Source: a virus. From it: 24,831 nucleotides of DNA. Below the pieces are notes generated by a model. That model saw only the letters and a list, made by a program, of their open reading frames with translations. It searched no databases and was not told the DNA's origin. Position numbers and translations under genes: made by a program. Below are positions 625 to 24,214 of this stretch, piece by piece (position 1 is the first letter of the stretch; the number at the start of each line of letters is the position of its first letter). Location of the stretch: positions 1 to 24,831 of IMG/VR virus record IMGVR_UViG_3300035180_000804; one strand, given 5' to 3'.

Positions 625-640
625 CTGAACCGGTTCCTCT
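625..640 (+). promoter_or_regulatory. 16-nt late-region motif, copy 1
   Basis: CTGAACCGGTTCCTCT contains the perfect 10-bp palindrome GAACCGGTTC (627-636). A 15-of-16 copy lies at 6834-6849 before the protease gene. Both copies end exactly 34 nt before an ATG, and both leaders carry ACCATG with that ATG 8 nt upstream of the start. A TTGACG hexamer at 614-619 could act as a -35, but no good -10 follows. By analogy with the activator-dependent late promoters of Mu, one of which lies before gene I, this may be an activator or repressor site. The function is inference. Confidence 0.4.
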
Positions 641-674
641 ACGGCTTTTGCAGCCCGGGCAGCACCATGCCCAC

Positions 675-1028
675 ATGCCTGCCATCCCACCCGAACTCAA
701 AGACTGGTTCAACCTGATCCAGTGGCTCATCACCGGCCTGCTGGCCGTCGCCGTCTGGCTGCGCAAGCCGGGCGAAGACGCCGGCCAGGCCGTATCGGCG
801 CTGCGGCGCGAGCTCGTCGATGAGCTGGCGGGTATGAGCCACCGCCTCACGGTCGTCGAGGAGCAGGCCAAGCACGTGCCGACGCGGGCTGACGTGGCCG
901 AGCTGGAGGGGTCGATCAAGGCCATCTCCATGCAGGCTTCCGGGCTGGCCGAGGCGATCTCCACGATGCGGGTGCAGCTCAACCGCATCGAGGCTTACTT
1001 GCTGCGCGCACAGGATTCACGTCTATGA
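675..1028 (+). CDS. DUF2730-like protein (Mu gp25 type), membrane anchor plus coiled coil
   Basis: The product has 117 residues when started at ATG 675. An in-frame TTG at 648 would add nine residues, but ATG 675 fits the leader shared with the protease gene. Residues about 13-30 form one membrane helix (LIQWLITGLLAVAVWL). The rest is a charged heptad-rich coiled coil from the region of ALRRELVDEL to RIEAYLLR. This shape and the position just before the gp26- and gp27-like genes match Mu gp25. Its role is not established. The stop overlaps the next ATG by 4 nt (ATGA at 1025-1028). No good Shine-Dalgarno precedes the start. Confidence 0.75.
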   Translation: MPAIPPELKDWFNLIQWLITGLLAVAVWLRKPGEDAGQAVSALRRELVDELAGMSHRLTVVEEQAKHVPTRADVAELEGSIKAISMQASGLAEAISTMRVQLNRIEAYLLRAQDSRL

Positions 1029-1318
1029 AGTTCGCCACCTTTCAGGAGGCGGACCGCCGCCTCGTCATCCTCAAGGGCCTGGAGGCTGCCGCGCAGTACC
1101 GCGCCAACCTGCTGCTGCTGCGCCGCTACTGCGACGCCGTCGGCCACGTGGTCAGCAGCGACCGCATCGCCGCCGACATGGCCTGGCTCGCCGAGCAGGG
1201 CCTGGTCGAGTGCGACCACAGCGGCCCGATCGGCGTGGCCACGCTCACCGCGCGCGGCATGGACGTGGCCACCGGCCGCACCGAGGTGCCGGGCGTGCAG
1301 CGTCCGCAACCGATCTGA
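1025..1318 (+). CDS. Mu gp26-like phage protein (VpaChn25_0724 type), winged-helix-like
   Basis: A 97-residue protein. The N-terminal helix has the pattern RRLVILKGLEAAAQYRANLLLLRRYCDAVGH. The following part (VSSDRIAADMAWLAEQGLVE, then a TLTARGMDVATGR wing) reads like a small winged helix. Proteins of this form regularly sit between the gp25-like protein and the small terminase in Mu-like phages and are often labelled VpaChn25_0724 family. The fold suggests nucleic-acid binding, perhaps with the terminase, but no role is proven. It is translationally coupled to the upstream gene by ATGA. The next gene begins 9 nt after its stop. Confidence 0.75.
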   Translation: MKFATFQEADRRLVILKGLEAAAQYRANLLLLRRYCDAVGHVVSSDRIAADMAWLAEQGLVECDHSGPIGVATLTARGMDVATGRTEVPGVQRPQPI

Positions 1319-1327
1319 GGGCACGCC

Positions 1328-1900
1328 ATGCCACCCGTCAGCAAGATCGCCCAGTTGCCGGAGGAGATCCGCGCCTGGTTGCATGCCACCCTCGTGAAGC
1401 GCTCGTTCGGCAACATCGAAGCCGTGACAGCCGATCTGCAGGCGATGCTGCAGGAGGCCGGCGTGGCGATGTACATCGGCAAGAGCGCGGTCGGCGCGGA
1501 GTCGCTGAAGATCAAGCGGGCGCAGGAGAGCATCCGCGCCACCACCGAAGCGGCGAAGCTGATCGCCGAGACCAGCCGCGACGATGGTGACACCCGCAGC
1601 GAGGCCGCCATGGCCATCGTGCAGAGCGAGGTGTTCGAGCTGCTGTTGCAAGTGCGCGAGGCTGACGATGAGGAAGACCCGGCCGCGCGCCTGGGCCTGA
1701 TGAACGAGGCCGCCCTGGGCCTGAGCCGGCTCAGCCGCGCCCGCGTCAACCAGAGCCGCTGGCGCACCGAGGTCGAGACCAAGGCCCGCGAAGCCGCCGA
1801 CGCCGTCGCCAAGATCGCCAAGACCGGCGGCCTGCAGGCCAGCCAGGTCGCCGAGATCCGCGCGCAGATCCTGGGCATCACGAAGCGGGGTGCCGCCTGA
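1328..1900 (+). CDS. terminase small subunit, DUF3486 (Mu gp27 type)
   Basis: A 190-residue, strongly helical protein. It opens with SKIAQLPEEIRAWLHATLVKRSFGNIEAVTADL, the helix-turn-helix-like N-terminus typical of DUF3486. Charged helices follow, ending near EIRAQILGITKRG. It is expected to recognise phage DNA and start headful packaging together with the large subunit encoded at 2109. GAGGG just upstream of ATG 1328 serves as ribosome binding site. The stop shares one base with the next start (TGATG at 1898-1902). Length and position between the gp26-like and large-terminase genes agree with the family. Confidence 0.88.
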   Translation: MPPVSKIAQLPEEIRAWLHATLVKRSFGNIEAVTADLQAMLQEAGVAMYIGKSAVGAESLKIKRAQESIRATTEAAKLIAETSRDDGDTRSEAAMAIVQSEVFELLLQVREADDEEDPAARLGLMNEAALGLSRLSRARVNQSRWRTEVETKAREAADAVAKIAKTGGLQASQVAEIRAQILGITKRGAA

Positions 1901-2112
1901 TGTGCGACTCGATCCTGGAGCTGCAGCTGTTCGGCATCATGGTGGTGTTCGGCAGCCTGGGCGTGTTCATGGGCTGGATCGCATGCCGCGTGTTCGGCAC
2001 CGGCATGGCTGAATACGACCGTGGCTATGAAGCCTGTCTGCGAAATCGTGCGCGGGCAGCCCGAGACGTGAAACGCCGGACTGGTCGGTCTGATGGCGAG
2101 GAAGCATCGTGA
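1900..2112 (+). CDS. small single-pass membrane protein
   Basis: This 70-residue ORF has one clear hydrophobic helix (about residues 8-30, LQLFGIMVVFGSLGVFMGWIACRVF) and a basic, Arg-rich C-terminal half. It overlaps the small terminase by one base and the large terminase by four (GTGA at 2109-2112), so it is embedded in the packaging operon and is probably real. I do not recognise a family. By topology it would sit in the inner membrane with the basic tail in the cytoplasm. A lysis-related (holin-like) role is possible, but nothing specific supports it. Confidence 0.6.
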   Translation: MCDSILELQLFGIMVVFGSLGVFMGWIACRVFGTGMAEYDRGYEACLRNRARAARDVKRRTGRSDGEEAS

Positions 2113-3692
2113 GCGCCATCCCACTGCTCACACCGGATGCCCCAGCCGATGCGCCGCCGCCGGTGCTGCTGGGCTACCAGCAGGCCTGGATCGCCGACAC
2201 CGCTCAGCTCAAGGTCTGGGAGAAGAGCCGGCGCGTGGGCGCCACCTGGGCCGAGGCGGCCGACGCCGTGCTCGATGCGGCGGCCGAAGGCGGCTCGAAC
2301 TACTTCTATATCAGTGCCGCCCAGGACATGGCGCGCGAGTTCATTGAAGCGGTGGCGATGTGGGCCAAGGCCTTCAGCTTCGCCGCCTCGACGATCGGCG
2401 AGGGCATCTGGGACGACGGCGTCGATCCGGAAGCCGGGCGGCGCTACATCAAGACCTTCGAGGTCAGCTTCCCGAACGGCAAGCGCGTCCTGGCGCTCAG
2501 CTCGCGGCCGACCAACCTGCGCGGCAAGCAGGGAAACATCGGCATCGACGAAGCGGCCTTCGCGCCGGAGCTGCCGGGGCTGCTGAAAGCCGCCATGGCG
2601 ATGCTGCTGTGGGGCAACAAGGTGCGCATCTGGTCCACGCACGACGGCGTCGAGAACCCATTCAACGCGCTGATCGAGGAGATCCGCGCCGGCAAGCGCG
2701 GCAGCGCCACCGTGCATCGCATCACCTTCGACGAGGCGGTCGATGCCGGCCTGTACCGCCGCGTGTGCCTGCGCAAAGGCATCACCTGGACGCAGGCCGC
2801 TCAAGACAAGTGGGTGGCCGAGGCGCGCGCCATGTACGGCGACGATGCGGCCGAAGAGCTCGACGTCATCCCGAGCCAGAGCGGCGGCGCCTACCTGAGC
2901 CTGGCGCTCATCAGCCAGCGCATGGTGCCGGCCTGGTCACCTGCCGCGCCGGCCGGCCCGGTGCTGGTGCGCGGCAAGTGGGACGACGGCTTTGCCTATC
3001 TGCCTGAGGACGTGCGGCGGTTCGCGATCGAGGGCTGGCTGGCCGAGAACGTCCGGCCGCACTTGGCACGCCTGAGCAAGGAGCGGCGCCACGTGTTCGG
3101 CAACGACTTCGCCCGCAACCGCGACCAGTCGGTCATCACGGTGCTGCAGCAGGACATCGACCTGGTCGAGCGCGTGGTGCTGGTGATCGAGCTGGCCAAC
3201 TGCCCCTTCAGCAGCCAGCAGCAGATCCTGTTCTGCCTGGTCGATGGGCTGCCGCGCTTCCGTGGTGGCGCGATGGATGCCACCGGCAACGGCGCGGCGT
3301 TGGCCGAAGCGGCGGCGCAGCGCTACGGCACGCAGATGGTCGAGCAGGTCAAGCTGAGCGACGGCTTCTACCTGGCGCACATGCCGAAGATGAAGGCCGG
3401 CCTGCAGGACGGCACCTTGACCGACATCCCGCGCGACGATGCGCTGCGCGATGACCTGCGCGCCATCAAGCTGATTCAGGGTGTGCCCAAGCTGCCGAAG
3501 GCCGACACGCAGAGCGCAGGCGCCAAGGCTGCTGCGGCTGACGGCGGCGGCAAGCTGCGCAGGCATGGTGACTTCGCGGTCGCGCTGTTCCTGGCGCACT
3601 ACGCCTTCACCCGTGAGGCGGGCGAGATCGACTTCCTACCGCTGCCTGGCAAGACAGACACCTGGGACGGCGATGACGATCTATGGGGCTGA
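2109..3692 (+). CDS. terL: terminase large subunit (Mu gp28 type)
   Basis: This 527-residue packaging motor has an N-terminal ATPase and a C-terminal RNase H-like nuclease. Residues 39-46 (KSRRVGAT) form the Walker A variant typical of large terminases. Residues 143-151 (NIGIDEAAF) carry Walker B with D147 and the catalytic glutamate E148. IWSTHDG at 174-180 fits motif III. Candidate nuclease acidic residues are D333 (FGNDFA), D390 (AMDATGNG) and D488 (HGDFAVALF). The start is GTG at 2109, coupled by GTGA to the upstream gene. The protein docks on the portal encoded next and cleaves concatemer-free, transposed phage DNA by headful packaging, as in Mu. The length is usual for the family. Confidence 0.93.
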   Translation: MSAIPLLTPDAPADAPPPVLLGYQQAWIADTAQLKVWEKSRRVGATWAEAADAVLDAAAEGGSNYFYISAAQDMAREFIEAVAMWAKAFSFAASTIGEGIWDDGVDPEAGRRYIKTFEVSFPNGKRVLALSSRPTNLRGKQGNIGIDEAAFAPELPGLLKAAMAMLLWGNKVRIWSTHDGVENPFNALIEEIRAGKRGSATVHRITFDEAVDAGLYRRVCLRKGITWTQAAQDKWVAEARAMYGDDAAEELDVIPSQSGGAYLSLALISQRMVPAWSPAAPAGPVLVRGKWDDGFAYLPEDVRRFAIEGWLAENVRPHLARLSKERRHVFGNDFARNRDQSVITVLQQDIDLVERVVLVIELANCPFSSQQQILFCLVDGLPRFRGGAMDATGNGAALAEAAAQRYGTQMVEQVKLSDGFYLAHMPKMKAGLQDGTLTDIPRDDALRDDLRAIKLIQGVPKLPKADTQSAGAKAAAADGGGKLRRHGDFAVALFLAHYAFTREAGEIDFLPLPGKTDTWDGDDDLWG

Positions 3693-3696
3693 CCTG

Positions 3697-3813
3697 ATGC
3701 ATGCCAGCACCTGCCCAAAACCGCCCAAAGGCCGCCCAAATCGCCGACCGGGGCTGCTGGGCTACATCCGGACGTTTGCACACGTCGCGGGGCTCCCTGG
3801 CCTGACTCACTGA
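3697..3813 (+). CDS. possible 38-residue basic ORF in the terminase-portal gap
   Basis: ATG at 3697 opens a 38-codon frame through to TGA at 3811-3813, filling most of the 142-nt gap between terminase and portal. The peptide is basic and Pro-rich at the start (CPKPPKGRPNRRPG) and then mildly hydrophobic. There is no clear ribosome binding site. It overlaps a repeated DNA motif whose 10-11 nt period does not keep codon phase, which argues that the DNA signal rather than the peptide may be what is conserved. I do not recognise it. Confidence 0.2.
   Translation: MHASTCPKPPKGRPNRRPGLLGYIRTFAHVAGLPGLTH
3713..3740 (+). repeat. three GCCCAAA direct repeats, one helical turn apart
   Basis: GCCCAAA occurs at 3713-3719, 3723-3729 and 3734-3740, so the starts are 10 and 11 nt apart. 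The last two copies extend to CCGCCCAAA. The array lies in the gap between the large terminase and the portal. Spacing of about one DNA turn puts all copies on the same face of the helix, as in binding arrays. A short inverted repeat, GACGT/ACGTC, follows near 3772-3787. The function is unknown. Confidence 0.5.
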
Positions 3814-3834
3814 ACACCACATTGGCAGCCCATC

Positions 3835-5481
3835 ATGGCAAACAAGATCCTGGACCAACACGGCAACCCGATCGACATGGCGGCCATCCGCGAGCCGCAG
3901 ACCGAGCAGGCCGCCACCGGCTCGACCATCGGCGCCGCGCGGGTCGGCTGGCTCAAGCGAGAGTTCGATGCGCACCCGGGCCGTGCACTCACGCCGCAGC
4001 GGCTCAACCACATCCTGCAGCAGGCCGAGGCCGGCGACCTGATCGCTCAGCTTGAGCTGGCCGACGACATGGAAGAGCGCGACGGCCAGATCTACAGCGA
4101 GCTGGCCAAACGCAAGACCGCCGTCACCACGCTGCAGTGGGACGTGGAGCCGCCCGACAACGCCACGCCGGCCGAGCAGGCCCAGGCTGACCAGGTGCGC
4201 GACTGGCTCAAGCAGATCTCGAACTTCGAGGAAGACATCCTGTTGGAGATGATGGATGCCGTCCTGAAGGGCTACAAGCCGATCGAGATGTGGTGGCAGC
4301 TCGACCAGGGCACCCTGCAGCCGCGCTTCGAGCCCCGGCCGCAGCGCTGGCTGTGCCTGGACGAGGACCGCGACTGCCTGCACCTGCGTGATGGCGCCAG
4401 CCCCTACGGCGTGCCGCTGCAGCCCTACGGCTGGCTGCTGCACATGCACCGCAGCCGCAACGGCTACCTGGCACGCGCGCCGCTGTGCCGCGTGCTGGCC
4501 TGGCCGTACCTGTTCAAGCACTACGCGGTGCGCGACCTGGCCGAGTTCCTGGAGATCTACGGCCTGCCGATGCGCCTGGGCAAGTACCCGGCCGGCGCCA
4601 CCGACGACGAGAAGCGCAAGCTGCTGGCCGCCGTGGTGAGCATCGGCCACAACGCGGGCGGCGTGATCCCGCAGAGCATGGCGATCGACTTCCAGAACGC
4701 CGCCCAGGGCAACGAGGCGCCGTTCAAGACCATGTGGGACGGCATGGACGCCGTCGAGTCCAAGATCATCCTGGGCCAGACACTCACCAGCAGCGAAGGT
4801 AAGAGTGGCAGCCAGGCGCTGGGCAACGTGCACAACGAGGTGCGGCTCGACATCCTCAAGAGCGACGCCAAGCGCGTGGCCGCCACGCTCACCGACCAGC
4901 TCATCAAGCCGCTGGTGATGTTCAACATCGCCGCCGCCGACCCGCGCCGCCTGCCACGCTTCTGCCTGGACGTGCCCGAGCCCGAAGACCTGGCGCTCTA
5001 CGCCGACGCGCTGCCCAAGCTGGCCGGCGCCGGCATGCGCATCGGCGTGAGCGATCTGCACCGGCGCCTGCGCATCGAGGAGGCTGACGACGGCGAGGAT
5101 GTGTTGCATGGCCCGGCGGCAGCGCCTGCGCCTGGCGTGCCTGGTGCGGCGCCCGTCACGCCACCAGGTGGAAAGACGCCGGCCGCCCTGGCAGGCACCA
5201 TGCCGGCCGCGCCCGCACAGCGCGACGCGCTCGACGACCTGGTCGATTCGGCGCTGAGCGACTGGCAGCCGGTGATGAGCGCGCTGGTCGAGCCGCTGAT
5301 GATGGAAATCGACAAGGCCCTTGCATCCGGTGAAAGCCTGCAGGCCTTCCGCGACCGCCTGCCCAAGATCGCCAAGCAGATGGACGACGCCCCGCTCGCC
5401 GAGCGCGTGGCGCGCGCCACGTTCGCGGCCAGGCTGGCTGGCGAGGCGGATCTGGATCTGTCCGGCGACGAGGTGGCCTGA
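3835..5481 (+). CDS. portal protein, DUF935 family (Mu gp29 type)
   Basis: This 548-residue protein forms the dodecameric ring at the head vertex through which DNA enters and leaves. Family features are visible throughout. The N-terminus has the DQHGNPID pattern. Next comes LTPQRLNHILQQAEAGD, then ELADDMEERDGQIYSELAKRKTAV. YKPIEMWW and the PRFEPRPQRWLCLDED strand come before EFLEIYGLPMRLGKYPAGA. The C-terminal core has IILGQTLTSSEG and a late SDLHRRLRIEE. An Ala/Pro-rich linker (about residues 425-465) leads to a helical tail. The start at ATG 3835 gives the usual N-terminus. It lies downstream of the terminase with a 142-nt gap, and the minor head gene follows after one base. Confidence 0.93.
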   Translation: MANKILDQHGNPIDMAAIREPQTEQAATGSTIGAARVGWLKREFDAHPGRALTPQRLNHILQQAEAGDLIAQLELADDMEERDGQIYSELAKRKTAVTTLQWDVEPPDNATPAEQAQADQVRDWLKQISNFEEDILLEMMDAVLKGYKPIEMWWQLDQGTLQPRFEPRPQRWLCLDEDRDCLHLRDGASPYGVPLQPYGWLLHMHRSRNGYLARAPLCRVLAWPYLFKHYAVRDLAEFLEIYGLPMRLGKYPAGATDDEKRKLLAAVVSIGHNAGGVIPQSMAIDFQNAAQGNEAPFKTMWDGMDAVESKIILGQTLTSSEGKSGSQALGNVHNEVRLDILKSDAKRVAATLTDQLIKPLVMFNIAAADPRRLPRFCLDVPEPEDLALYADALPKLAGAGMRIGVSDLHRRLRIEEADDGEDVLHGPAAAPAPGVPGAAPVTPPGGKTPAALAGTMPAAPAQRDALDDLVDSALSDWQPVMSALVEPLMMEIDKALASGESLQAFRDRLPKIAKQMDDAPLAERVARATFAARLAGEADLDLSGDEVA

Positions 5482-5482
5482 C

Positions 5483-6238
5483 ATGCCGACCGCCATCCCT
5501 ACCGGCTTCACCCTCGGCGCCGTGGCGCCCGAGGAGGCGATCGCCGCATTCCAGGCGCGCAAGCTGCTGGAGACCACCTTCAGCTGGCAGGACATGTGGC
5601 ACGAGGAGCACACCCGCGCCTTCACCGTCAGCCGGCTGGCCGAGACCGATCTGCTCGACTTCGTGCGGGCCGAGCTGGACAAGGCGATCGCGGCCGGCAC
5701 TGACATCCAGGACTGGGCCGACACCATCCAGCAGCGGCTGGAGAGCGCCGGCTGGTGGGGCAAGCGCGAGGTGATCGACACGACCACCGGCGAGCAGGTC
5801 AGCACGACCTTCGATCCGCGCCGGCTGCAGCTGATCTTCGAGGTCAACACCCGGCAGAGCTACGCCGCCGGGCGCTGGGCGCGCATCGAGCGCAGCAAGG
5901 ACACGTTGCCCTTCGTGGTCTACCGCACCCGGCGCGACGAGAAGGTCCGCGCCTCGCACCGGCCGTGGGATGGCCTGGTGCTGCCGGTCGATGACCCGTG
6001 GTGGGACACGCACTACCCGCCCTGCGGCTGGCGATGCCGCTGCACCGCCTACGCCATCAACCAGCGCGGCATCGACAAGCTGCGTGCCGCCGGCCTGCCG
6101 GTCAAGACCGAAGCGCCGCCTACTCAGTGGGTCGAGTTCATGAACAAGCGCACCGGCGAAGTGAGCAAGGTGCCGCGCGGCGTGGACCCGGGCTTCGGCT
6201 TCAACCCCGGCAAGGTGCGGCCGGTGCCCAGGTCATGA
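5483..6238 (+). CDS. phage minor head protein, Mu F (gp30) family
   Basis: A 251-residue protein started at ATG 5483, one base after the portal stop. Upstream in-frame codons overlap the portal gene and translate to low-complexity Arg/Pro sequence, so the longer form is rejected. The family signature is clear: ARIERSKDTLPFVVYRTRRDEKVRASHRPWDG at about 134-164, VDDPWWDTHYPP at 169-180 and CGWRCRC at 181-187. Such proteins help head assembly and may be ejected with the DNA. Mu F itself is about twice as long, so this is a short version carrying mainly the conserved core. It ends in an ATGA overlap with the next gene. Confidence 0.9.
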   Translation: MPTAIPTGFTLGAVAPEEAIAAFQARKLLETTFSWQDMWHEEHTRAFTVSRLAETDLLDFVRAELDKAIAAGTDIQDWADTIQQRLESAGWWGKREVIDTTTGEQVSTTFDPRRLQLIFEVNTRQSYAAGRWARIERSKDTLPFVVYRTRRDEKVRASHRPWDGLVLPVDDPWWDTHYPPCGWRCRCTAYAINQRGIDKLRAAGLPVKTEAPPTQWVEFMNKRTGEVSKVPRGVDPGFGFNPGKVRPVPRS

Positions 6239-6789
6239 GCGATCTGCTCGACATCAAGGTCAGTGATGCCGAGCTGCAGGCCACGCTCGATGCCGCAGTG
6301 CAGGCGATGGCGCACCCGCGCGAGCTGCTCGATGACGTCGGTGCCGTGCTGGAGCAGGACATCAACATCCGCTTCGACACGCACACCGACCCGAGCGGGA
6401 AGCATTGGCAGGAACTCAGCGCGCTGACGCCAGCCTTCTACGCAGCGACCACCGGAGCCAAGGGGCAGCGCCAGAACCCGAGCAAGGCTGGCTGGCAGAA
6501 GATCCGGGAGACGCCTCGCAGCGGCAGCGGCGGTGATGCCACCCTGCAGCAGACCGGCCACATGCGCGCCAGCCTGACCCACACCGCAGGTGACGACTTC
6601 GTCGCGATCGGCTTCAGCCGCGCAACCCCGGGCGGCAAGTGGCAGGTGGCGCTGTTGCACGAGTGGGGCACCAAGTCGATGCCGCGCCGTGGCCTGCTCA
6701 CTGCCAGCCCTGCCACCGGCGAGCTGGGCGAGGCAGACAAGGCCGACGTGCTCGCCGAAATCGAGCGCTTCCTCACTGGCCTGTTCTGA
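6235..6789 (+). CDS. phage virion morphogenesis protein (Mu G / P2 S type)
   Basis: A 184-residue protein started at ATG 6235 in a 4-nt overlap with the F-like gene. The pattern is that of the virion morphogenesis family (PF05069). An N-terminal helical part (ELLDDVGAVLEQDINIRFDTHTDPSGKHW) is followed by LQQTGHMRASLTHTAGDDFVAIGF and HEWGTKSMPRRGLL near residues 140-155. The last stretch corresponds to the usual H-x-G...PxRxFL ending. Family members act at head completion or head-tail joining. The gene closes the first head block; 94 untranslated bases follow before the protease gene. Confidence 0.87.
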   Translation: MSDLLDIKVSDAELQATLDAAVQAMAHPRELLDDVGAVLEQDINIRFDTHTDPSGKHWQELSALTPAFYAATTGAKGQRQNPSKAGWQKIRETPRSGSGGDATLQQTGHMRASLTHTAGDDFVAIGFSRATPGGKWQVALLHEWGTKSMPRRGLLTASPATGELGEADKADVLAEIERFLTGLF

Positions 6790-6817
6790 CGGCCCTGCCA
6801 CCGCGCAACCCCCTTGC

Positions 6818-6833
6818 AGCCCCTGAAAGGGCT
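6818..6833 (+). terminator. small stem-loop before the protease leader
   Basis: AGCCC (6818-6822), loop CTGAAA, GGGCT (6829-6833) form a 5-bp GC-rich stem directly before the second copy of the 16-nt late motif. No T-run follows, so it is not a standard intrinsic terminator. It may be an attenuating hairpin or chance. Confidence 0.2.
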
Positions 6834-6849
6834 CTGAACCGTTTCCTCT
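6834..6849 (+). promoter_or_regulatory. 16-nt late-region motif, copy 2, before protease I
   Basis: CTGAACCGTTTCCTCT differs from the copy at 625-640 at one base, which breaks the palindrome by one position. It ends 34 nt before ATG 6884, exactly the distance seen at copy 1. In Mu a late promoter (PI) lies before gene I. A phage-encoded regulator binding here is a reasonable but unproven reading. Neither leader has a Shine-Dalgarno sequence at the normal distance. Confidence 0.4.
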
Positions 6850-6883
6850 GCACCGCTGAGGGCTGCGCCGCGACCATGGCGGC

Positions 6884-8002
6884 ATGCCTTCCCGATCGCC
6901 CCGCCGCACCTACCTGGCCCTGCTGGCCGCCGCGCTGACACTGTCCGCACGGGCGGATGTGCAGCTGCTGCCGGCGGGCGAGTTCAAGGCCCGCGACGGC
7001 CGGCCCGGACCAGGCAAGACCTGGAAGATCGACGACCCGACCGGCCGCCGCATGGCAGCCGAGCTGACGGCGCAGTCGGCGCGCACCGAGTTCCTGTTCG
7101 ACTACGACCACCAGACCATCCGCTCTGAAGCCAACGGAGTCATCGCGCCGGCTGCGGGCTGGGCTAGGACATTCGCGTGGCGCCCGGGCCAGGGCCTCTA
7201 TGCCACCGGCGTGAGCTGGACCGAAGCGGCGCTGGCCAGCATCGAGCTGGGCGAGTACCGCTACGTCAGCCCGGTCATCACCTTCGATGACCAGGGGTGC
7301 GTCACCGGCGTGCTGATGGCCGCCATCACCAACTACCCCGCGCTGCTCGGCATGGAGCAGCTCGGCCAGTCGCTGGCGGCCCAGCTCAGCGCGCAGTTCA
7401 CCACCCCCACCACCCCCAACACACCGGAGCACGATGTGACCCTGCTCGAACAACTCATTGCCGCGCTCGGCCTCAAGGCGGGCACCACCGATGCCGAGGC
7501 GCTCTCGGCCGTCATCGCGCTGCGCACCGCAGCGGGCAAGCCGGCTGCGCTGAGCGGAGCCATCACCGGCGCGCTGAGCCTGGCGGCCACCGCCGACGAG
7601 GCCACCGCGCTGGCCGCGATCCAGACCCTGAAGACCCAGGCCACGGGCGCCGACGCCACGACCGCCACCACCATCGCCGCCCTGCAGGGTCAGCTCGCCA
7701 CACTGATGGCGCAGACGGCCGAGCGCGAGGTGAACGAGGTGGTGCAGGCTGCGCTGAGCGCCGGCAAGCTGCTGCCGGCACAGAAGGAATGGGCCACCAG
7801 TGTGGGCAAGAAAGATCTGGGACTGCTCAAGCTCTATGTCGCCGGCGCGCCGACCATGGCCAGCCTGCAAAGCCAAACCGGTGGCAAGGCGCCCGAAGGT
7901 GCTGGCGGCGCGGCCGCCCTGACGACCGAGGCCCGCGAGGCGCTCGCGCTCATGGGCGTGACCGAGGACGCCTGGACCAAGCAGTTCGGCACCAAGGCGT
8001 GA
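6884..8002 (+). CDS. head maturation protease, Mu gpI family, with C-terminal scaffold part
   Basis: A 372-residue protein. The N-terminal half is the protease: VQLLPAGEFKARDGRPG (26-42), FLFDYDHQT (70-78) and LGEYRYVSPVITFD (122-135) are the family signatures. A Thr/Pro linker (172-182) then leads to a helical, Ala-rich scaffold half ending in ALMGVTEDAWTKQFGTKA. It cleaves scaffold and head proteins during capsid maturation. The first 24 residues look like a signal peptide, but such hydrophobic N-termini are seen in this family and export is not expected. The start at ATG 6884 keeps the leader shared with 675; another ATG 8 nt upstream is out of frame. Confidence 0.9.
   Translation: MPSRSPRRTYLALLAAALTLSARADVQLLPAGEFKARDGRPGPGKTWKIDDPTGRRMAAELTAQSARTEFLFDYDHQTIRSEANGVIAPAAGWARTFAWRPGQGLYATGVSWTEAALASIELGEYRYVSPVITFDDQGCVTGVLMAAITNYPALLGMEQLGQSLAAQLSAQFTTPTTPNTPEHDVTLLEQLIAALGLKAGTTDAEALSAVIALRTAAGKPAALSGAITGALSLAATADEATALAAIQTLKTQATGADATTATTIAALQGQLATLMAQTAEREVNEVVQAALSAGKLLPAQKEWATSVGKKDLGLLKLYVAGAPTMASLQSQTGGKAPEGAGGAAALTTEAREALALMGVTEDAWTKQFGTKA
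7426..7429 (+). promoter_or_regulatory. internal ribosome binding site for nested scaffold
   Basis: GGAG at 7426-7429 stands 6 nt before an in-frame GTG at 7436 inside the protease gene. This is as good a Shine-Dalgarno arrangement as those of the nearby genes at 8053 and 8532, and it decides the proposed nested start. Confidence 0.6.
7436..8002 (+). CDS. nested capsid scaffold protein (Mu gpZ equivalent) from internal GTG
   Basis: The in-frame GTG at 7436 (Val185 of the protease) is preceded by GGAG at 6 nt and would give a 188-residue scaffold. It begins exactly where the Thr/Pro linker ends and the helical domain (TLLEQLIAALGLKAG) begins. In Mu, gene Z is the in-frame 3' part of gene I and makes the scaffold, so the arrangement is expected from biology. 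The product is Ala/Thr-rich and helical, with a conserved ending (TTEAREALALMGVTEDAW) that probably touches the major head protein. The separate product is inferred, not seen. Confidence 0.65.
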   Translation: MTLLEQLIAALGLKAGTTDAEALSAVIALRTAAGKPAALSGAITGALSLAATADEATALAAIQTLKTQATGADATTATTIAALQGQLATLMAQTAEREVNEVVQAALSAGKLLPAQKEWATSVGKKDLGLLKLYVAGAPTMASLQSQTGGKAPEGAGGAAALTTEAREALALMGVTEDAWTKQFGTKA

Positions 8003-17556: not shown

Positions 17557-17996
17557 CCGCATCACCACATCTCGGCGCCGACCTGGCTGCCTATCTGGCC
17601 TTGCAGCAGGCGCAAGCCTTTTGCTGGCAGCGCAACAACTGCTGCCACTTCACGGCGCGCTGGGTGGCACAGGTCACCGGGCGTGATCCGATGCAGGGCC
17701 TGGCAGACACACCCGACGCTCGCGCCGCGCTGCGCCTGGTGCAGCAGCTCGGCGGCGATCTGCGTGCGGCCTGGTCGCGCCAGCTCGCACAGGAGCCCAT
17801 CAGCGCGCTGCTGGCCCAGGTCGGTGATGTGGTGCTGTTCGAGGCTTTCGCAGCTGACGTGGCCGGTGTCGGCGCGCTGGTGGGCATCTGCGCCGGCCGC
17901 ACGGCCGTGGTGCTCGACGTCGTGGGCAACGTGCTGCACCTGCCGCTGACCGAAGCGGACTGCGCCTGGCGCATCACTCGTGGGGATCTGGCATGA
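17553..17996 (+). CDS. DUF6950 / NlpC-P60-like tail protein (lambda K position)
   Basis: A 147-residue protein started at ATG 17553 in a 4-nt overlap. The family core is CWQRNNCCHFTARWVAQVTGRDP at 24-46 and VGDVVLFE at 90-97, with a final HLPLTEADCAWRI. It matches the pattern W-x-x-x-DC-C-x-F-x-A-x-W-V-x-x-x-TGRDP of DUF6950. The usual Asp-Cys is Asn29-Cys30 here, and the histidine expected of an active NlpC/P60 peptidase after GDV is not obvious. A peptidoglycan-cutting role is therefore open. It ends in an ATGA overlap with the tip gene. Confidence 0.75.
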   Translation: MTASPHLGADLAAYLALQQAQAFCWQRNNCCHFTARWVAQVTGRDPMQGLADTPDARAALRLVQQLGGDLRAAWSRQLAQEPISALLAQVGDVVLFEAFAADVAGVGALVGICAGRTAVVLDVVGNVLHLPLTEADCAWRITRGDLA

Positions 17997-20900
17997 AGCG
18001 ATGGGGATTTGTCATCGTCGCTGCAGCCCTGGCTGCAATCCCGGCTGTTGCTGCTGCCGATCCGGTCACGATCGTGGCGACGGCCATGATCGTCCTCGGT
18101 GAGGGGATGGTGGTCTACGCCGGCTATGCGCTGCTCGTGGCTGCGGCCGTCTATGGCGCCGCCAATGCCCGCAGGCAGGCGCGCCGCGCCGCCGCCCAGG
18201 CGCGTGCCGAGTACAACGCCCGGCTGACCGAGCGGTCCGTGACCGTGCTGGCGGCCGACCCGCCCTGGCAGGTGGTCTACGGCCGCTGCCGGGTCGGTGG
18301 CTACGTGGTCGGCATGCTCACGACCGACAAGATCGGCATGCTCGACAACGGCAACTACCGCACCAAGCCCGACGGCTACCGGCACCTGGTGATCGCGATC
18401 GCAGCACACGAGGTGCAGGACATCCACGAGATGTACATCCAGGGCGTGCCGATCGGTGCCACGGATGCGACCGGCTGGGCCACGGCGGGGCCGAGTGAGG
18501 CGCCCTGGGGCAAGGTGAAGCGGGCGATCATCGAGTCGCCCACGGCACTGACGTTCAGTGCGGCCGGTCAGTGGTCGTTCGATCCGGTGCTGTTCGCCAA
18601 CAAAACCATCGTCAAGGTGCTGGCTGCCAACACCCAGCCGCTGAGTTCGAACGCGGATGGCGGCCCATCCGGAACGGCCTACTCGCTCACGGTGGCCGGT
18701 CCGCGCACCATCGGCGGCGCGCCGGCCAACGCGCAGCTCTACGTCAGCTGCGAGATCGAATGGGTCGAGTCCTGCGTGCGCTGGACCAAGCACCTGGGCA
18801 CCGACACCCAGACCGTGGACACGTACCTGAACGGTGTTGCTCCGGCTGACTGGACGGTCAACCACCGACTGCAGGGCCATGCCTACGTGACGGTGACGCT
18901 CGACCTTGAAGACCCGCGCTTCCAGGGTGGCGTGCCCGGCATCAACTTCGACGTGTCAGGCCGCAAGGTGCTCGACCCGCGCACCGGCACGACGGTCTGG
19001 ACGCGCAACCCCGCGCTCATCATCTACGACTGGCTGCGCCAACCCTGGGGCTACGAGTGCGCCGCGCAGGACGTGGACACCGCCAGCGTGATCACTGCGG
19101 CCAACGCTTGCGACGTGGCGATCAGCCTGACCGTGGGCACCACCACCGAGACCGGCCAGGCGACGTACACCTGCGACGGCGCCTTCACCACCGAGGCCAG
19201 CAAGGAAAGCGTGCTCGAAGACCTGGCAGAGACCATGGGCGGCTTCGCCAACTACGGTGCGAAGTGGAGCGTGCATGCCGGCATGTGGACGGCGCCGGTG
19301 ATGACGCTCACCGATGACTACCTGGCCGGCCCGCTGCAGATCGTGCAAGCCGGGGTCGGCATGGACGCCGCCTTCAACGGCGTGCGCGGCACCTACATCC
19401 AGAGCGGCACCGACACGCCCAGCGACATCGAGCCGTACAAGAACGCCTCCTACGTGACGGCCGACGGCCTGGAGCTGTGGACCAACGTCGGCCTGCCGTA
19501 CACCAACCACAAGGCGCGGGCCCGCAACCTGTGCCGGGTGATGGTGGAGCGCAACCGCGATGGCCTGGTGGCGCAGTACCCGGCCGACCTGCGCGCCTGG
19601 CCGCTCGAAGTCGGCGACCGGGTCAGCGTCACGAACACCGAGTACGGCTGGACCGCCAAGACCTTCCGGATCACCGACTGGCAGTTCGATCTGACCAGCG
19701 CAGTGGTGCTCACGCTGCAGGAAGACGCCGCCACGATCTACGACCTGGCCGATGCCTCGGCCGCCGATGCCGCACCGAACACCACGCTGCCGAACCCCTG
19801 GGCCATCGAGCAGGTCGCCGGGCTGGTGGCCACCAGTGGCACCGCCACGCTGATGCTGCTCGCGGACGGCACGATCGTGCCGCGTGTCCTGGTGACGTGG
19901 ACCGCGCCGACCTCGGCGCACATGAGCGGCACTGGCGCCCGCACCGAGGTCGAGTGGACGACGATCGGCTCCAGCACCTGGATGCGCGGCGCCACCCTGG
20001 GCGGCGACAACAGCCTCTACCTGGGCGGTCTGCGCGACGACGGCAGCTACCTGAAGATCCGGGCCCGCCACATCAACACAGCCGGCATCGATGGCCCCTG
20101 GGTGACCATCGTGCACCAGGTCATCGGCAAGTCGGCCGTGCCGGCCAACGTGGCCGGCCTGGCCGCCACCGTGGTGCAGGGCGGCGTGCGCATCAACTGG
20201 ACCGCGAGCAGCGAGATCGACTACGCCAGCACCCAGCTGCGCATCGGCACCAGCTGGGCCTCGGCCACACCGCTGGCCGACATCAAGGGCAACACCTACA
20301 CCTGGCCCTGGCCGGCCCAGGGCAGCTACACCCTCCTGGCGCGACACCTCGACACCAGCGGCGGCCTGAGCGCTGCAGCGGCATCGACAGCCGTGGTGGT
20401 CGATGCCAGCGCGCTGGTGCAGTGGAACAACATCACCGGGCAGCCGCAGCAGGGGCGCAACCTGGTGGACACGAGTGAGTGGGTTGCCGGCCTGGCCGAT
20501 GCGGCAGTGCCGTGGCTACGGATGCAGAGCACCGCTGGCGAAAACTCCATCATCTTGAATGTCGGCCCCAGAGGTGTTGGTGCGATGTTGTGGCGGGCGG
20601 TGGCATCGGGCGATAGCGCCACCAGCGTGAATGCCGATGGCGGGTTCGCGGCCAGCTATCCGACTGGCAAGCATATCGTTCCAGATGTAAATAAGGCCTA
20701 TCGTGTGGTCGTGCCGGTCAAACGGGTCGGTTCGACTGTCTCTGGAACCTGCTATGTGGGCATCGCGCCGCAATTCCCGGCGGTCGCACATATCGCCAAC
20801 CTCAACACCACGACGTTCAACAACAACCCGTACTTTGAAGGCATTGGCATGTCAGCACTGCCGGCCGACGTGTGGTGCGTCGTGGTGGGTTACGTCTACC

Positions 20901-23900
20901 CGGCTGGCAGTACCGGCATGAGTCACGATGGCTCTGGTGTCTACCGCTGTGACACCGGCAGCCTGGTCAGCGCCGGCACCAATTTCTGTTTCATGGCTGG
21001 GGCTACGATCTTTGGCGTGCGTGCTTTCCAGTACGGCTGCACCGTCGCCGGCACTGAACTGCACATCGGCGAGCCGCAGATCCACATCGCCGACGGCACC
21101 GAGCCCAGCATCCTGGCCCTGATGGGCGACGGTGCCTGGCGCGGCATTGCTGCCGTGCTCAGCAACGACAGCCACACCGTGCCGGCGGACAGCGCAGGCG
21201 TGGTCAGCACGTTTGCCGGTGCCGCCAGCACGATCACCGTGCTGCAGGCCGGCGCCGACACCACGGCGAGCTGGACGATCACGAAGGCCGACAGCGGCTG
21301 CACAAGCACCTTGGCTGGCACCACGGTGACTGTGACCGCGCTGGCAGCCGATGTCGGGTATGTGGACATCACAGCCACCAGACCGGGCTACGCGACGCTC
21401 ACACGGCGCTTCACCGTGGCCAAGGCAAAGGCCGGTGCTGCAGGTGCGGCCGGCGCGCCGGGCGCCACCGGAGCAACAGGCGCGACCGGTGCTGCTGGCG
21501 CCGCCGCCACCGCCTACTGGATCGAGCGCAGCGTGGGCGCCATCGGCAAGAGCGTTGCGGGCGTCTACACCCCGGCGACCGTGACGTTCAACGCCCGCTC
21601 GGCCACGGGTGCCGCCGCGCCAGCGGCCTACGCTGGCCGGTTCATCGTCGAGCAGACGACCGATGGCACGACCTGGACGACGGTCTACACCAGCGCCGCC
21701 AACGAGGCGAGCCGCACCCAGACACCGGCAGCAGGCATCAAGGCCTTGCGCGTGACGCTCTACCTGGCCGGCGGCACGGTGACGCAGCTCGACCAGGAAG
21801 TCGTGCCGGTCGTTGTCGATGGTGCGACGGGTGCCACTGGATCGACGGGCGCTACGGGGCCGACCGGCATATCTCCGATCTCGGTGATTCTTGGCAACGA
21901 GGCCCATGTCCTGCCCGCTGATGCATCTGGCAATGTCATCAGCTATGCGGGCAGCGGTACTACGGTATCGGTCTATCAAGGCAGCACGCTGCTTTTGTAT
22001 GACGGGGTTGGTACTTCAGCCGGGACTTGGCGGTTTTCTGGCTCGACATCTGTCAACTACACATTTGGGGCAGTGACGACGTCCAGCGGTGTTGCAGTCG
22101 TGGCGGATGGATCTGGGGTTGCGGTTGGTATCGATACGGCTAGCGCGACGTTTGGCATTGTTGGAAAAGCTCTTGACGGTACAGCGCTATCTATTTCACG
22201 GATACAAACGTTCGGCAAATCAAAGCAAGGCTCAGCGGGGGCTGCAGGCGCCACCGGAGCGACGGGTGCGGCCGGTGCTGCTGGCGCCGCCGCCACCGCC
22301 TACTGGCTGGCGCGCAGCGCCGGGGCCATCCGGCGCAGCGTGTCGGGTGCTTACACGCCAGCCAGCCTCACGGTCACGGCCTACAGCGCCACGGGCACCG
22401 GCGCGCCGGCTGCCTATGCGGGCCGATTCGTGATCGCCACCAGCACGGACGGCAGCACCTATACCGCCGCATACACCAGCGCCGCCAACGAGAGCAGCAC
22501 CGCCTACACGCCGCCGGCTGGTGTGGTGTCGCTGCGCCTGCGTCTATACCTGGCTGGCGGAACGACCACGCTGCTGGATGAAGAGGTGGTGCCAATCGTC
22601 AAGGATGGCATGGGCGTCACCCTGGTCGATGCCAGCAGCTGGGTGCCTGGATCTGCCACGCCCTGGCCGACTTATGAGGATGTCACCGGCGAGACCAGCA
22701 TTGTCTGGGCGCCCGGTATCAAAGGTGCCAGCGTGCCGGTGATGCAGTGCCTGGCGGACAGCATCAACAAGATCTGCCAACCCGAAGCGATTTCATCCAC
22801 TGCAACATGGTTTCCGTGCCAGACCGTCACAGGGGTTGCTGACACGTTTGCGGTGGATGCCACCACTTTCTATACAGGCACATCGAGCTTCAAACTGACG
22901 AAGGCGACGCTGGCTACAAATGCACAGGGGCGAGCCAGTCGCGCGATTGCAGTGACGCCCGGTCAGGTCTATCGCGTCCGGGTGGCAGTCAAGGGTGATA
23001 CGGCCACGGCGACGGGCGTTTATGTGCGCATCCACCAGGCGGCAGCGCTCCCGAGCAGTGGGGCGATTAACGAGACCAACCGATCCGGATTCACTGTCAT
23101 TCAGGACAACGGCGCTGTCACGACATCGTTTGTGGTCAAGAGCCTGACATACACCGTGCCGGCTGGCGTCAATGCGATATCTCTGGGTGTGTTCTCGTGG
23201 GCCAATGGGCCGCTGAATCTGTGGTTTGACGAGCCCGTCATCAATCTGGCATCCGGCACAGACAGTGCGGTAGGCCCGAGACAGAATTACGAAGGCGGTT
23301 TCGCCGCTGGCGCAGCGAACTCATTTGTGCCGGACACCACCAAGACCTACCGGTTCGTGATCCCGATCTGGCGTGACAGCGATGCAGCGTTCGGGTACCA
23401 GTATTTTGGCCCGGAGGCAAACAAGGTCTGCAACCTCAACACCAGCACACCAAACGGCAATCCGTACTTCGAGGTACAAGCCAACACACTCACTGCCGGC
23501 CGGTGGTACCTCGCTGTTGGCTACGTCTATCCGGCCGGATCAACCGGCATGACGAACAACGATGCGGGTGTCTGGGATACGCTGACTGGTGCGAAGGTGT
23601 TCAGCGGCACAAACTTCTGCTGGCTGGCTGGCGTGACATCGTGCGGCATTCGAGCGCTGCAGCATGTGGCCGACACAGGGAGCAAGACGCTGTTCGGGCA
23701 GCCGCTGGTGCATGTGGTGGATGGCAACGAGCCGCCGCTGCGGACGTGGCTGGCGGTGAGTACGACGGACATTGCGCCGGGTGCTGCAACAGCAATCTAT
23801 GAGACTGTTACGCCATCGATAAGTGTCTGGAACAATGGCAATTCTGCATTGGTTGGTACTTTGAATTTTACAGCAGATGCTGACGGAATTGTTTCCATAA

Positions 23901-24214
23901 GAGCCAGTGGTGCTTTTAGTGTTGTATATGATGCATATTCTGCAGGCCCTGGGAGCAACGTGGCATGTAATTTTTATTTGAATGGCACAAAAAACTTGCT
24001 TCCACTTAGTCTTCCTGGCGTATCAATTGGTGGCCCTGGAGATGGTGTGCATCCTGCTGGATTAATTAGCTCTTTATACTTTCTTGATTCTTCTGTACCT
24101 GCTTCCAATGGAGATATATTTAGTTTTTACGTAGTCTGTTATGCGCCAGCTTCCACATCGACAACAAATAGTGTTGCTAGCGGAACAATTCATGCTGAAT
24201 TAATAAAGAGGTAA
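17993..24214 (+). CDS. tip attachment / receptor-binding protein, lambda J-like, multidomain
   Basis: A 2073-residue protein. Residues 1-65 hold two hydrophobic segments, the first resembling a signal peptide, then Arg/Ala-rich sequence. The tip core runs about 80-590, ending in the TLQEDAATIYDLADA pattern typical of J-like proteins. Two fibronectin-III-like domains span about 596-805. Then come modules C1 (823-1045), A1 (1051-1147), collagen 1 (1148-1171), B1 (1172-1276), collagen 2 (1277-1291), A2 (1292-1412), collagen 3 (1413-1433) and B2 (1434-1538). C2 (1543-1914) follows, with an extra domain inside, and last an AT-rich tip (about 1920-2073). The protein should close the tail tip and bind the host surface. 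It overlaps the previous gene by ATGA and the chaperone follows. Confidence 0.88.
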   Translation: MKRWGFVIVAAALAAIPAVAAADPVTIVATAMIVLGEGMVVYAGYALLVAAAVYGAANARRQARRAAAQARAEYNARLTERSVTVLAADPPWQVVYGRCRVGGYVVGMLTTDKIGMLDNGNYRTKPDGYRHLVIAIAAHEVQDIHEMYIQGVPIGATDATGWATAGPSEAPWGKVKRAIIESPTALTFSAAGQWSFDPVLFANKTIVKVLAANTQPLSSNADGGPSGTAYSLTVAGPRTIGGAPANAQLYVSCEIEWVESCVRWTKHLGTDTQTVDTYLNGVAPADWTVNHRLQGHAYVTVTLDLEDPRFQGGVPGINFDVSGRKVLDPRTGTTVWTRNPALIIYDWLRQPWGYECAAQDVDTASVITAANACDVAISLTVGTTTETGQATYTCDGAFTTEASKESVLEDLAETMGGFANYGAKWSVHAGMWTAPVMTLTDDYLAGPLQIVQAGVGMDAAFNGVRGTYIQSGTDTPSDIEPYKNASYVTADGLELWTNVGLPYTNHKARARNLCRVMVERNRDGLVAQYPADLRAWPLEVGDRVSVTNTEYGWTAKTFRITDWQFDLTSAVVLTLQEDAATIYDLADASAADAAPNTTLPNPWAIEQVAGLVATSGTATLMLLADGTIVPRVLVTWTAPTSAHMSGTGARTEVEWTTIGSSTWMRGATLGGDNSLYLGGLRDDGSYLKIRARHINTAGIDGPWVTIVHQVIGKSAVPANVAGLAATVVQGGVRINWTASSEIDYASTQLRIGTSWASATPLADIKGNTYTWPWPAQGSYTLLARHLDTSGGLSAAAASTAVVVDASALVQWNNITGQPQQGRNLVDTSEWVAGLADAAVPWLRMQSTAGENSIILNVGPRGVGAMLWRAVASGDSATSVNADGGFAASYPTGKHIVPDVNKAYRVVVPVKRVGSTVSGTCYVGIAPQFPAVAHIANLNTTTFNNNPYFEGIGMSALPADVWCVVVGYVYPAGSTGMSHDGSGVYRCDTGSLVSAGTNFCFMAGATIFGVRAFQYGCTVAGTELHIGEPQIHIADGTEPSILALMGDGAWRGIAAVLSNDSHTVPADSAGVVSTFAGAASTITVLQAGADTTASWTITKADSGCTSTLAGTTVTVTALAADVGYVDITATRPGYATLTRRFTVAKAKAGAAGAAGAPGATGATGATGAAGAAATAYWIERSVGAIGKSVAGVYTPATVTFNARSATGAAAPAAYAGRFIVEQTTDGTTWTTVYTSAANEASRTQTPAAGIKALRVTLYLAGGTVTQLDQEVVPVVVDGATGATGSTGATGPTGISPISVILGNEAHVLPADASGNVISYAGSGTTVSVYQGSTLLLYDGVGTSAGTWRFSGSTSVNYTFGAVTTSSGVAVVADGSGVAVGIDTASATFGIVGKALDGTALSISRIQTFGKSKQGSAGAAGATGATGAAGAAGAAATAYWLARSAGAIRRSVSGAYTPASLTVTAYSATGTGAPAAYAGRFVIATSTDGSTYTAAYTSAANESSTAYTPPAGVVSLRLRLYLAGGTTTLLDEEVVPIVKDGMGVTLVDASSWVPGSATPWPTYEDVTGETSIVWAPGIKGASVPVMQCLADSINKICQPEAISSTATWFPCQTVTGVADTFAVDATTFYTGTSSFKLTKATLATNAQGRASRAIAVTPGQVYRVRVAVKGDTATATGVYVRIHQAAALPSSGAINETNRSGFTVIQDNGAVTTSFVVKSLTYTVPAGVNAISLGVFSWANGPLNLWFDEPVINLASGTDSAVGPRQNYEGGFAAGAANSFVPDTTKTYRFVIPIWRDSDAAFGYQYFGPEANKVCNLNTSTPNGNPYFEVQANTLTAGRWYLAVGYVYPAGSTGMTNNDAGVWDTLTGAKVFSGTNFCWLAGVTSCGIRALQHVADTGSKTLFGQPLVHVVDGNEPPLRTWLAVSTTDIAPGAATAIYETVTPSISVWNNGNSALVGTLNFTADADGIVSIRASGAFSVVYDAYSAGPGSNVACNFYLNGTKNLLPLSLPGVSIGGPGDGVHPAGLISSLYFLDSSVPASNGDIFSFYVVCYAPASTSTTNSVASGTIHAELIKR
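20459..21112 (+). repeat. module C1, first copy of a duplicated domain
   Basis: The encoded stretch from NLVDTSEWV to HIADGTEP pairs with the segment at 22619-23735 (TLVDASSWV to HVVDGNEP). Shared marks are GGFA, VPDxxKxYR, NLNT(T/S)xxxNPYFE, VGYVYPAGSTGM and GTNFC(F/W)xAG. It is probably a carbohydrate- or receptor-contacting beta domain. Confidence 0.75.
21434..21505 (+). repeat. collagen-like hinge 1 (eight Gly-X-Y triplets)
   Basis: Eight consecutive Gly-X-Y triplets, mostly GAA and GAT with one GAP, link modules A1 and B1. Such hinges form short triple helices in phage fibers. Its 3' end belongs to the 35-nt exact repeat shared with hinge 3. Confidence 0.85.
21486..21520 (+). repeat. 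35-nt exact direct repeat, copy 1 (hinge 1/module B1)
   Basis: These 35 bases are identical to 22272-22306 and lie at the junction of the collagen-like hinge and module B. The match is longer than needed to encode the shared residues and suggests a recent duplication or gene conversion. Confidence 0.85.
21506..21820 (+). repeat. module B1, first copy of a 105-residue duplicated domain
   Basis: The 105 residues from ATAYW to VVVD align without gaps to the 105 residues encoded at 22292-22606; by hand count 67 are identical. Conserved blocks include APAAYAGRF, YTSAANE and LYLAGGT. Confidence 0.85.
21821..21865 (+). repeat. collagen-like hinge 2 (five Gly-X-Y triplets)
   Basis: Five triplets (GAT, GAT, GST, GAT, GPT) separate module B1 from module A2. 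The base composition changes right after it, since module A2 is visibly richer in A and T. Confidence 0.8.
22229..22291 (+). repeat. collagen-like hinge 3 (seven Gly-X-Y triplets)
   Basis: Seven triplets (GSA then GAA and GAT types) link module A2 to B2. It shares the exact 35-nt repeat (22272-22306) with hinge 1. Confidence 0.85.
22292..22606 (+). repeat. module B2, second copy of the 105-residue domain
   Basis: Ungapped partner of 21506-21820. It starts with the same ATAYW encoded by identical bases and ends in EEVVPIVKD against QEVVPVVVD. Confidence 0.85.
22619..23735 (+). repeat. module C2, second copy of the C domain, split by an inserted domain
   Basis: The flanks (TLVDASSWV...; YEGGFAAG...HVVDGNEP) match module C1. 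About 170 residues encoded at roughly 22770-23283 have no counterpart in C1. The inserted part (TFYTGTSSFKLTKA ... VTPGQVYRVRVAVKG ... LWFDEPVINLA) has the jelly-roll pattern of carbohydrate-binding modules of the CBM4/9 type. Confidence 0.65.

Follow-up and report, generated by a model that had tools for sequence, protein, structure and literature searches.

A hairpin-bearing promoter-like element before late genes of a Mu-like phage and its relatives

Introduction

The stretch of DNA analysed here (the window, a whole IMG/VR record of 24,831 bases) is a fragment of a Mu-like phage, in which Pfam recognised gp27, the Mu-type portal, G, protease I and gpT, and which also encodes, at 17993–24214, a 2073-aa tail protein with collagen-like Gly-X-Y stretches (GATGATGATG). 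Two of its genes, encoding a gp25-like protein and the head maturation protease, raise the question of what the same short motif is doing ahead of both. The initial annotation had placed this motif, CTGAACCG(G/T)TTCCTCT, at 625–640 and 6834–6849 and had noted that an ATG begins exactly 34 nt after each copy (at 675 and 6884); both observations were confirmed. A third copy is not found in the window at up to 3 mismatches, and two copies arose in 0 of 100 dinucleotide shuffles (mean 0.18).

The twin motif is part of a larger element of ~53 nt, which is composed, in order, of a dyad (here GAACC-N2-TTCC), a non-conserved spacer, a −10-like box ANNAT, a discriminator of 6–7 nt and the ATG. The two sites are called W1 (gp25-like gene) and W2 (protease I) below, and their features are collected in Table 1. 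Neither a consensus sigma-70 promoter nor a terminator-like site was found between positions 500 and 7100 of the window, and hence no terminator-like site between W1 and W2; an Rfam search gave no match.

Table 1. Positions of the element parts and of the genes that follow them in the window
Feature	Sequence	Position	Strand	Remarks
W1 activator dyad	GAACCGGTTC	627–636	+	Centre 631.5, −43.5 from ATG 675; same place in L018 and L051
W1 hairpin	GGGCA-GCACCA-TGCCC	657–672	+	Fold; covariation across sites; in relatives GCGGGC-ACCATC-GCCCGC
W1 −10-like box	CACCAT	663–668	+	A at −11 kept across sites
gp25-like gene (DUF2730-like, phrog_736)		675–1028	+	Predicted transcript start on A of ATG
W2 activator dyad	GAACCGTTTC	6836–6845	+	Centre 6840.5, −43.5 from ATG 6884; one-mismatch copy at the same place in L051
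W2 hairpin	GCCGC-GACCATG-GCGGC	6867–6883	+	Covariation; compensatory change in L258 (GCCGGC-ACGAT-GCCGGC)
W2 −10-like box	GACCAT	6872–6877	+	A at −11 kept across sites
Head maturation protease I		6884–8002	+	PF10123, 5e-89; no Shine-Dalgarno; predicted leaderless start

Promoter geometry and the putative activator

If the A of the ATG is taken as +1, the ANNAT box occupies −12 to −7 and the dyad centre of W1 and W2 falls at −43.5, which matches the Mor dyad in the Mu promoter Pm, likewise centred at −43.5 (PMC4287176, PMC4390567). An A at −11, a position left free in the search pattern, is present in 30 of 30 distinct sites (15 of 15 non-redundant), and a T at −35, outside the search pattern used, in 31 of 41. 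The distance from dyad to ANNAT is constant at 26–27 nt across the unconserved spacer, and the discriminators are G+C-rich. A usable −10 box (ANNAT) without a consensus −35, as seen at W1 and W2, fits a Mor/C-activated promoter, and the sites lie where Plys and PI would be expected. The element thus resembles Mu Pm, activated by Mor, and Plys, PI, PP and Pmom, activated by C, in having a dyad at −43.5, a weak −10, sites before lys and I, and an accompanying Mor/C-family gene; it differs from Pm and the Mu late promoters in the sequence of the dyad.

A Mor gene (PF08765) is present in 19 of 24 tested site-bearing contigs, i.e., in all 19 contigs of at least 28 kb, the five without it being fragments of at most 22 kb. 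None was found in the window (24.8 kb) or in its relatives L018 and L051, all of which are fragments. Taken with the dyad geometry, this co-occurrence suggests that Mor is very probably the activator of these promoters. The initial annotation had proposed the site of a different late regulator: a late regulator is supported, whereas a different kind of regulator is not, since the protein probably belongs to the known Mor/C family and has a different DNA specificity.

Predicted leaderless starts

As the initial annotation had stated, neither ATG is preceded by a Shine-Dalgarno (SD) sequence. The same holds more widely: an SD-like tetramer at −17 to −5 occurs in 0 of 43 first genes, compared with 35 of 48 other D3112 genes and 12 of 22 other genes of the window. 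The missing SD is best explained by a leaderless mRNA; since +1 is predicted to coincide with the A of the ATG, no leader is expected, and we consider this start likely. In leadered variants of the element, the SD lies where it should if transcription begins at the predicted +1.

An ACCATG does precede both genes, its ATG lying 8 nt before the true start in another frame, but the suggestion that this ATG is coupled to initiation was abandoned, because it is simply the −10 box ACCAT followed by G, and the ATG is not conserved, reading ACCATC in L018 and L051 and ACCATT in DMS3 and MP29.

The mRNA of lambda cI from PRM is a known leaderless phage mRNA, which the predicted transcripts resemble in having the AUG at or next to +1 and no SD. 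However, cI is a lysogeny gene without a lock hairpin, whereas the genes considered here would belong to an activator-dependent late operon.

Recurrence of the element

With its geometry intact, the element recurs in two close relatives, in the Pseudomonas phages D3112, LPB1, MP29 and DMS3, and in viral contigs, where pattern scans gave 76 distinct sites (43 without near-duplicates) in contigs also encoding Mu-like proteins. Genome searches with N{6,7} before CATG admitted only discriminators of 7–8 nt, so their low counts understate the element.

The initial annotation had named absence of the motif from the same places in related phages as an outcome that would refute it, and two relatives were checked on this point. 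L051 carries the element before both homologous genes (at 2741 and 9832, with one mismatch in the second), and in L018 (83–85% identity) a longer element, CTGAACCGGTTCCYCT-N~23-ACCATG-N5-ATG, occurs three times, at 2131, 2532 and 5376; the last is at the homologous gp25-like place and the other two lie upstream of it. At 2532–2632 of L018, the second ATG of the element opens only a 16-codon frame and an SD-bearing gene follows ~98 nt downstream, showing that the element is not merely a gene start.

D3112 and LPB1 contain the element twice each, with the same 39-nt offset from the first motif base to the right-hand block. One copy, at the Plys position, lies directly after the Mor-like late activator gene and before the lysis region, and the other, at the PI position, lies before the head protease. 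Among the D3112 genes, orf19 is Mor-like. These positions, together with the dyad geometry and the co-occurrence of a Mor-family gene, give good support to the late-promoter reading of the initial annotation.

The element also bears on existing gene models. A 115-codon frame (MSTSSPPTSLRSPRDYAAAILAE...) begins at the Plys element in D3112 (L066, 10749–11096) and also in L067, and is unannotated in D3112 and LPB1. The protease starts of DMS3 and MP29 are annotated too far downstream. In D3112 (L066, 19793–19918), the protease orf33 is annotated from 19918, and the promoter-linked ATG is at 19793, matching the annotated protease start of LPB1 (18883). The frame from 19793 spans only 57 codons in this D3112 record, possibly through a frameshift or sequencing error; it stays open in MP29-type relatives.

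When relatives of protease I were fetched by protein alone, with no use of the motif, the same layout was seen with unrelated dyads (TGAAGTGCTTCA, GCGAAACGTTTCGC, TCAAACCCTTGA and TAAACCGGTTTA) centred at −42.5 to −44.5 (−43.5 in L019 and L003, −44.5 in L025 and L006), with the box in register 6–7 nt before the ATG and often with the hairpin described below. Two of these relatives, L014 and Vibrio phage martha, are exceptions with conventional SD starts, and the signature of box and hairpin was not seen in B3 itself. In Fc02 and JBD25, the layout is related but the dyad is a different one. In Fc02 (L242), a motif TTTTCGC(C/T)CCTTCCAAAA is common to both late clusters, before the holin and before the protease, and is probably the Beetrevirus counterpart of the dyad.

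RNA-seq of Fc02 has shown that the late clusters begin at the lysis and structural genes, with no start sites given (PMC9936078). Among the papers searched, there was no start-site map for these promoters and, with subscription papers outside the search, none joining leaderless, Mu-like, prophage and promoter. The layout is shared by dozens of related phages and appears to be previously undescribed.

A covarying hairpin around the −10 box

The most unusual part of the element, absent from the initial annotation, is an inverted repeat whose arms covary around the −10 box, the box sitting in the hairpin loop in most cases. Arms at other sites include GGTTGCC/GGCAACC, GTCGCC/GGCGAC and CATGCCGCC/GGCGGCATG. 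The span of the hairpin varies, such that it may stop just short of the ATG or include the ATG in its pairing; at W2, the right arm lies in the discriminator and adjoins the ATG. The W1 and W2 hairpins have only 5 bp and are singly not significant by shuffling (z −1.6 and −0.9, respectively). Across sites, the mean stem formed by a site's own arms is 4.79, compared with 3.13 ± 0.17 for swapped arms, the maximum over 2000 swaps being 3.69.

A stem of at least 5 bp was found at 50 of 61 sites with a gene at the +1 ATG and at 0 of 13 with a short frame at +1, sites that are not fully independent, the 13 stemming from few lineages and including the D3112 protease site, which was counted as short because its frame terminates early in the D3112 record. 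The non-redundant counts are 26 of 34 and 0 of 7 (Fisher p = 3e-4). An SD-bearing gene is listed downstream at 11 of the 13 short-frame sites, and in 8 of these it is endolysin-like and begins 21–26 nt after +1. This link between the hairpin and the predicted leaderless starts points to a function in translation rather than in promoter opening. Cases that distinguish G-U from A-C pairing are few, mostly from one lineage and too sparse to prove a role at the RNA level. A terminator hairpin was rejected, as there is no T tract.

Proposed mechanism and alternatives

We favour, on balance, an explanation that combines Mor/C-activated late promoters, leaderless first genes and a hairpin lock of read-through RNA. 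A dimer of the Mor/C family would bind the dyad at −43.5 and recruit sigma-70 RNA polymerase to the weak −10 box (ANNAT), and transcription would begin ~7 nt downstream of the box, on the A of the ATG, so that each late unit would have its first gene (gp25-like or protease I) translated from a leaderless mRNA. The inverted repeat would fold only in RNA read through from upstream genes, tying up the start codon, whereas initiation at the promoter would cut the hairpin, leaving an RNA without the left arm and with its start codon free. For the lock of the AUG by itself, we put the chances at about even. Read-through into W2 is plausible, since no terminator-like site lies between W1 and W2; what counts against the lock is that read-through RNA from W1 into the W2 gene would itself be late.

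The closest precedent for such a lock is found in the T4 genes e, soc, 49 and I-TevI: a hairpin in the longer early RNA conceals the start, and a late promoter lying within the hairpin yields RNA without the left arm (PMC3014915, PMC2988022). The likeness extends to both of these features. In contrast, T4 late mRNAs come from gp55 promoters and retain both an SD and a short leader, whereas at the present sites the loop contains the −10 box and a leaderless mRNA is predicted. The predicted start on the ATG also sets these sites apart from Mu PI, for which the published PI oligonucleotide places the inferred start ~23 nt before the I gene, making that transcript leadered (PMC4461284). The gene I leader of Mu (L251) contains a strong hairpin, CTGCTCA...TGAGCAG, around the approximate start site (z −5.2). 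As Mu PI is leadered and yet has this strong hairpin, the lock may predate the leaderless arrangement.

The same promoter and leaderless start could operate with a repeat that acts in DNA, where a cruciform, or a palindrome that melts easily, would expose the −10 box and aid opening, which would suit the location of the box in the loop in most cases and the G+C-rich discriminators. We regard this as unlikely, because the same dyad and box stand before leadered, SD-bearing genes with the repeat at none of the 13 sites, so that the repeat is unneeded for promoter function. Com is known to open a 5′ UTR hairpin of Mu mom, and a transcript begun upstream of the hairpin could be switched by a phage protein in the same manner; the hairpin touches the start codon and, besides this precedent in Mu-like phages, B3 annotates a Com homologue. 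Such a 5′ UTR switch is quite unlikely, however, as the constant dyad-to-ANNAT distance, the unconserved spacer and the conserved T(−35) fit a promoter, and leadered variants place their SD for the predicted +1.

Palindromes overlapping a −10 are typical operators, and a second dimeric repressor might therefore bind a repeat that overlaps the late promoters. This is improbable: the arms are wholly different between the two sites of one phage and between phages, yet their pairing is kept, and an operator for a second protein was rejected because the arms vary so freely. Shared ancestry of gene starts, or chance, without any function, would account for sites at homologous gene starts, but is highly improbable given that dyad, box and distances have persisted despite divergence of the spacer, that copies in L018 stand at non-gene starts, and that the arm-swap test separates own from swapped arms.

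Implications for Mu-like phages

The broadest reading, which we offer tentatively, is that, across a large group of Mu-like phages, late head proteins and sometimes lysis proteins are produced from leaderless mRNAs, which a Mor-type activator starts exactly on an AUG inside a hairpin that locks this AUG in read-through RNA; as part of the same tentative reading, a single element would act as a switch that couples promoter use to translation. In Gram-negative bacteria, leaderless mRNAs are regarded as rare and weakly translated. If the reading is true, widespread late structural-gene promoters that all start on the AUG would amount to a naturally occurring system of strong leaderless translation that could be tested in the well-known phages D3112, DMS3 and MP29, and a second lineage would join the T4-type start-site lock. 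The element also provides a simple rule for finding late promoters and correcting start codons in Mu-like phages.
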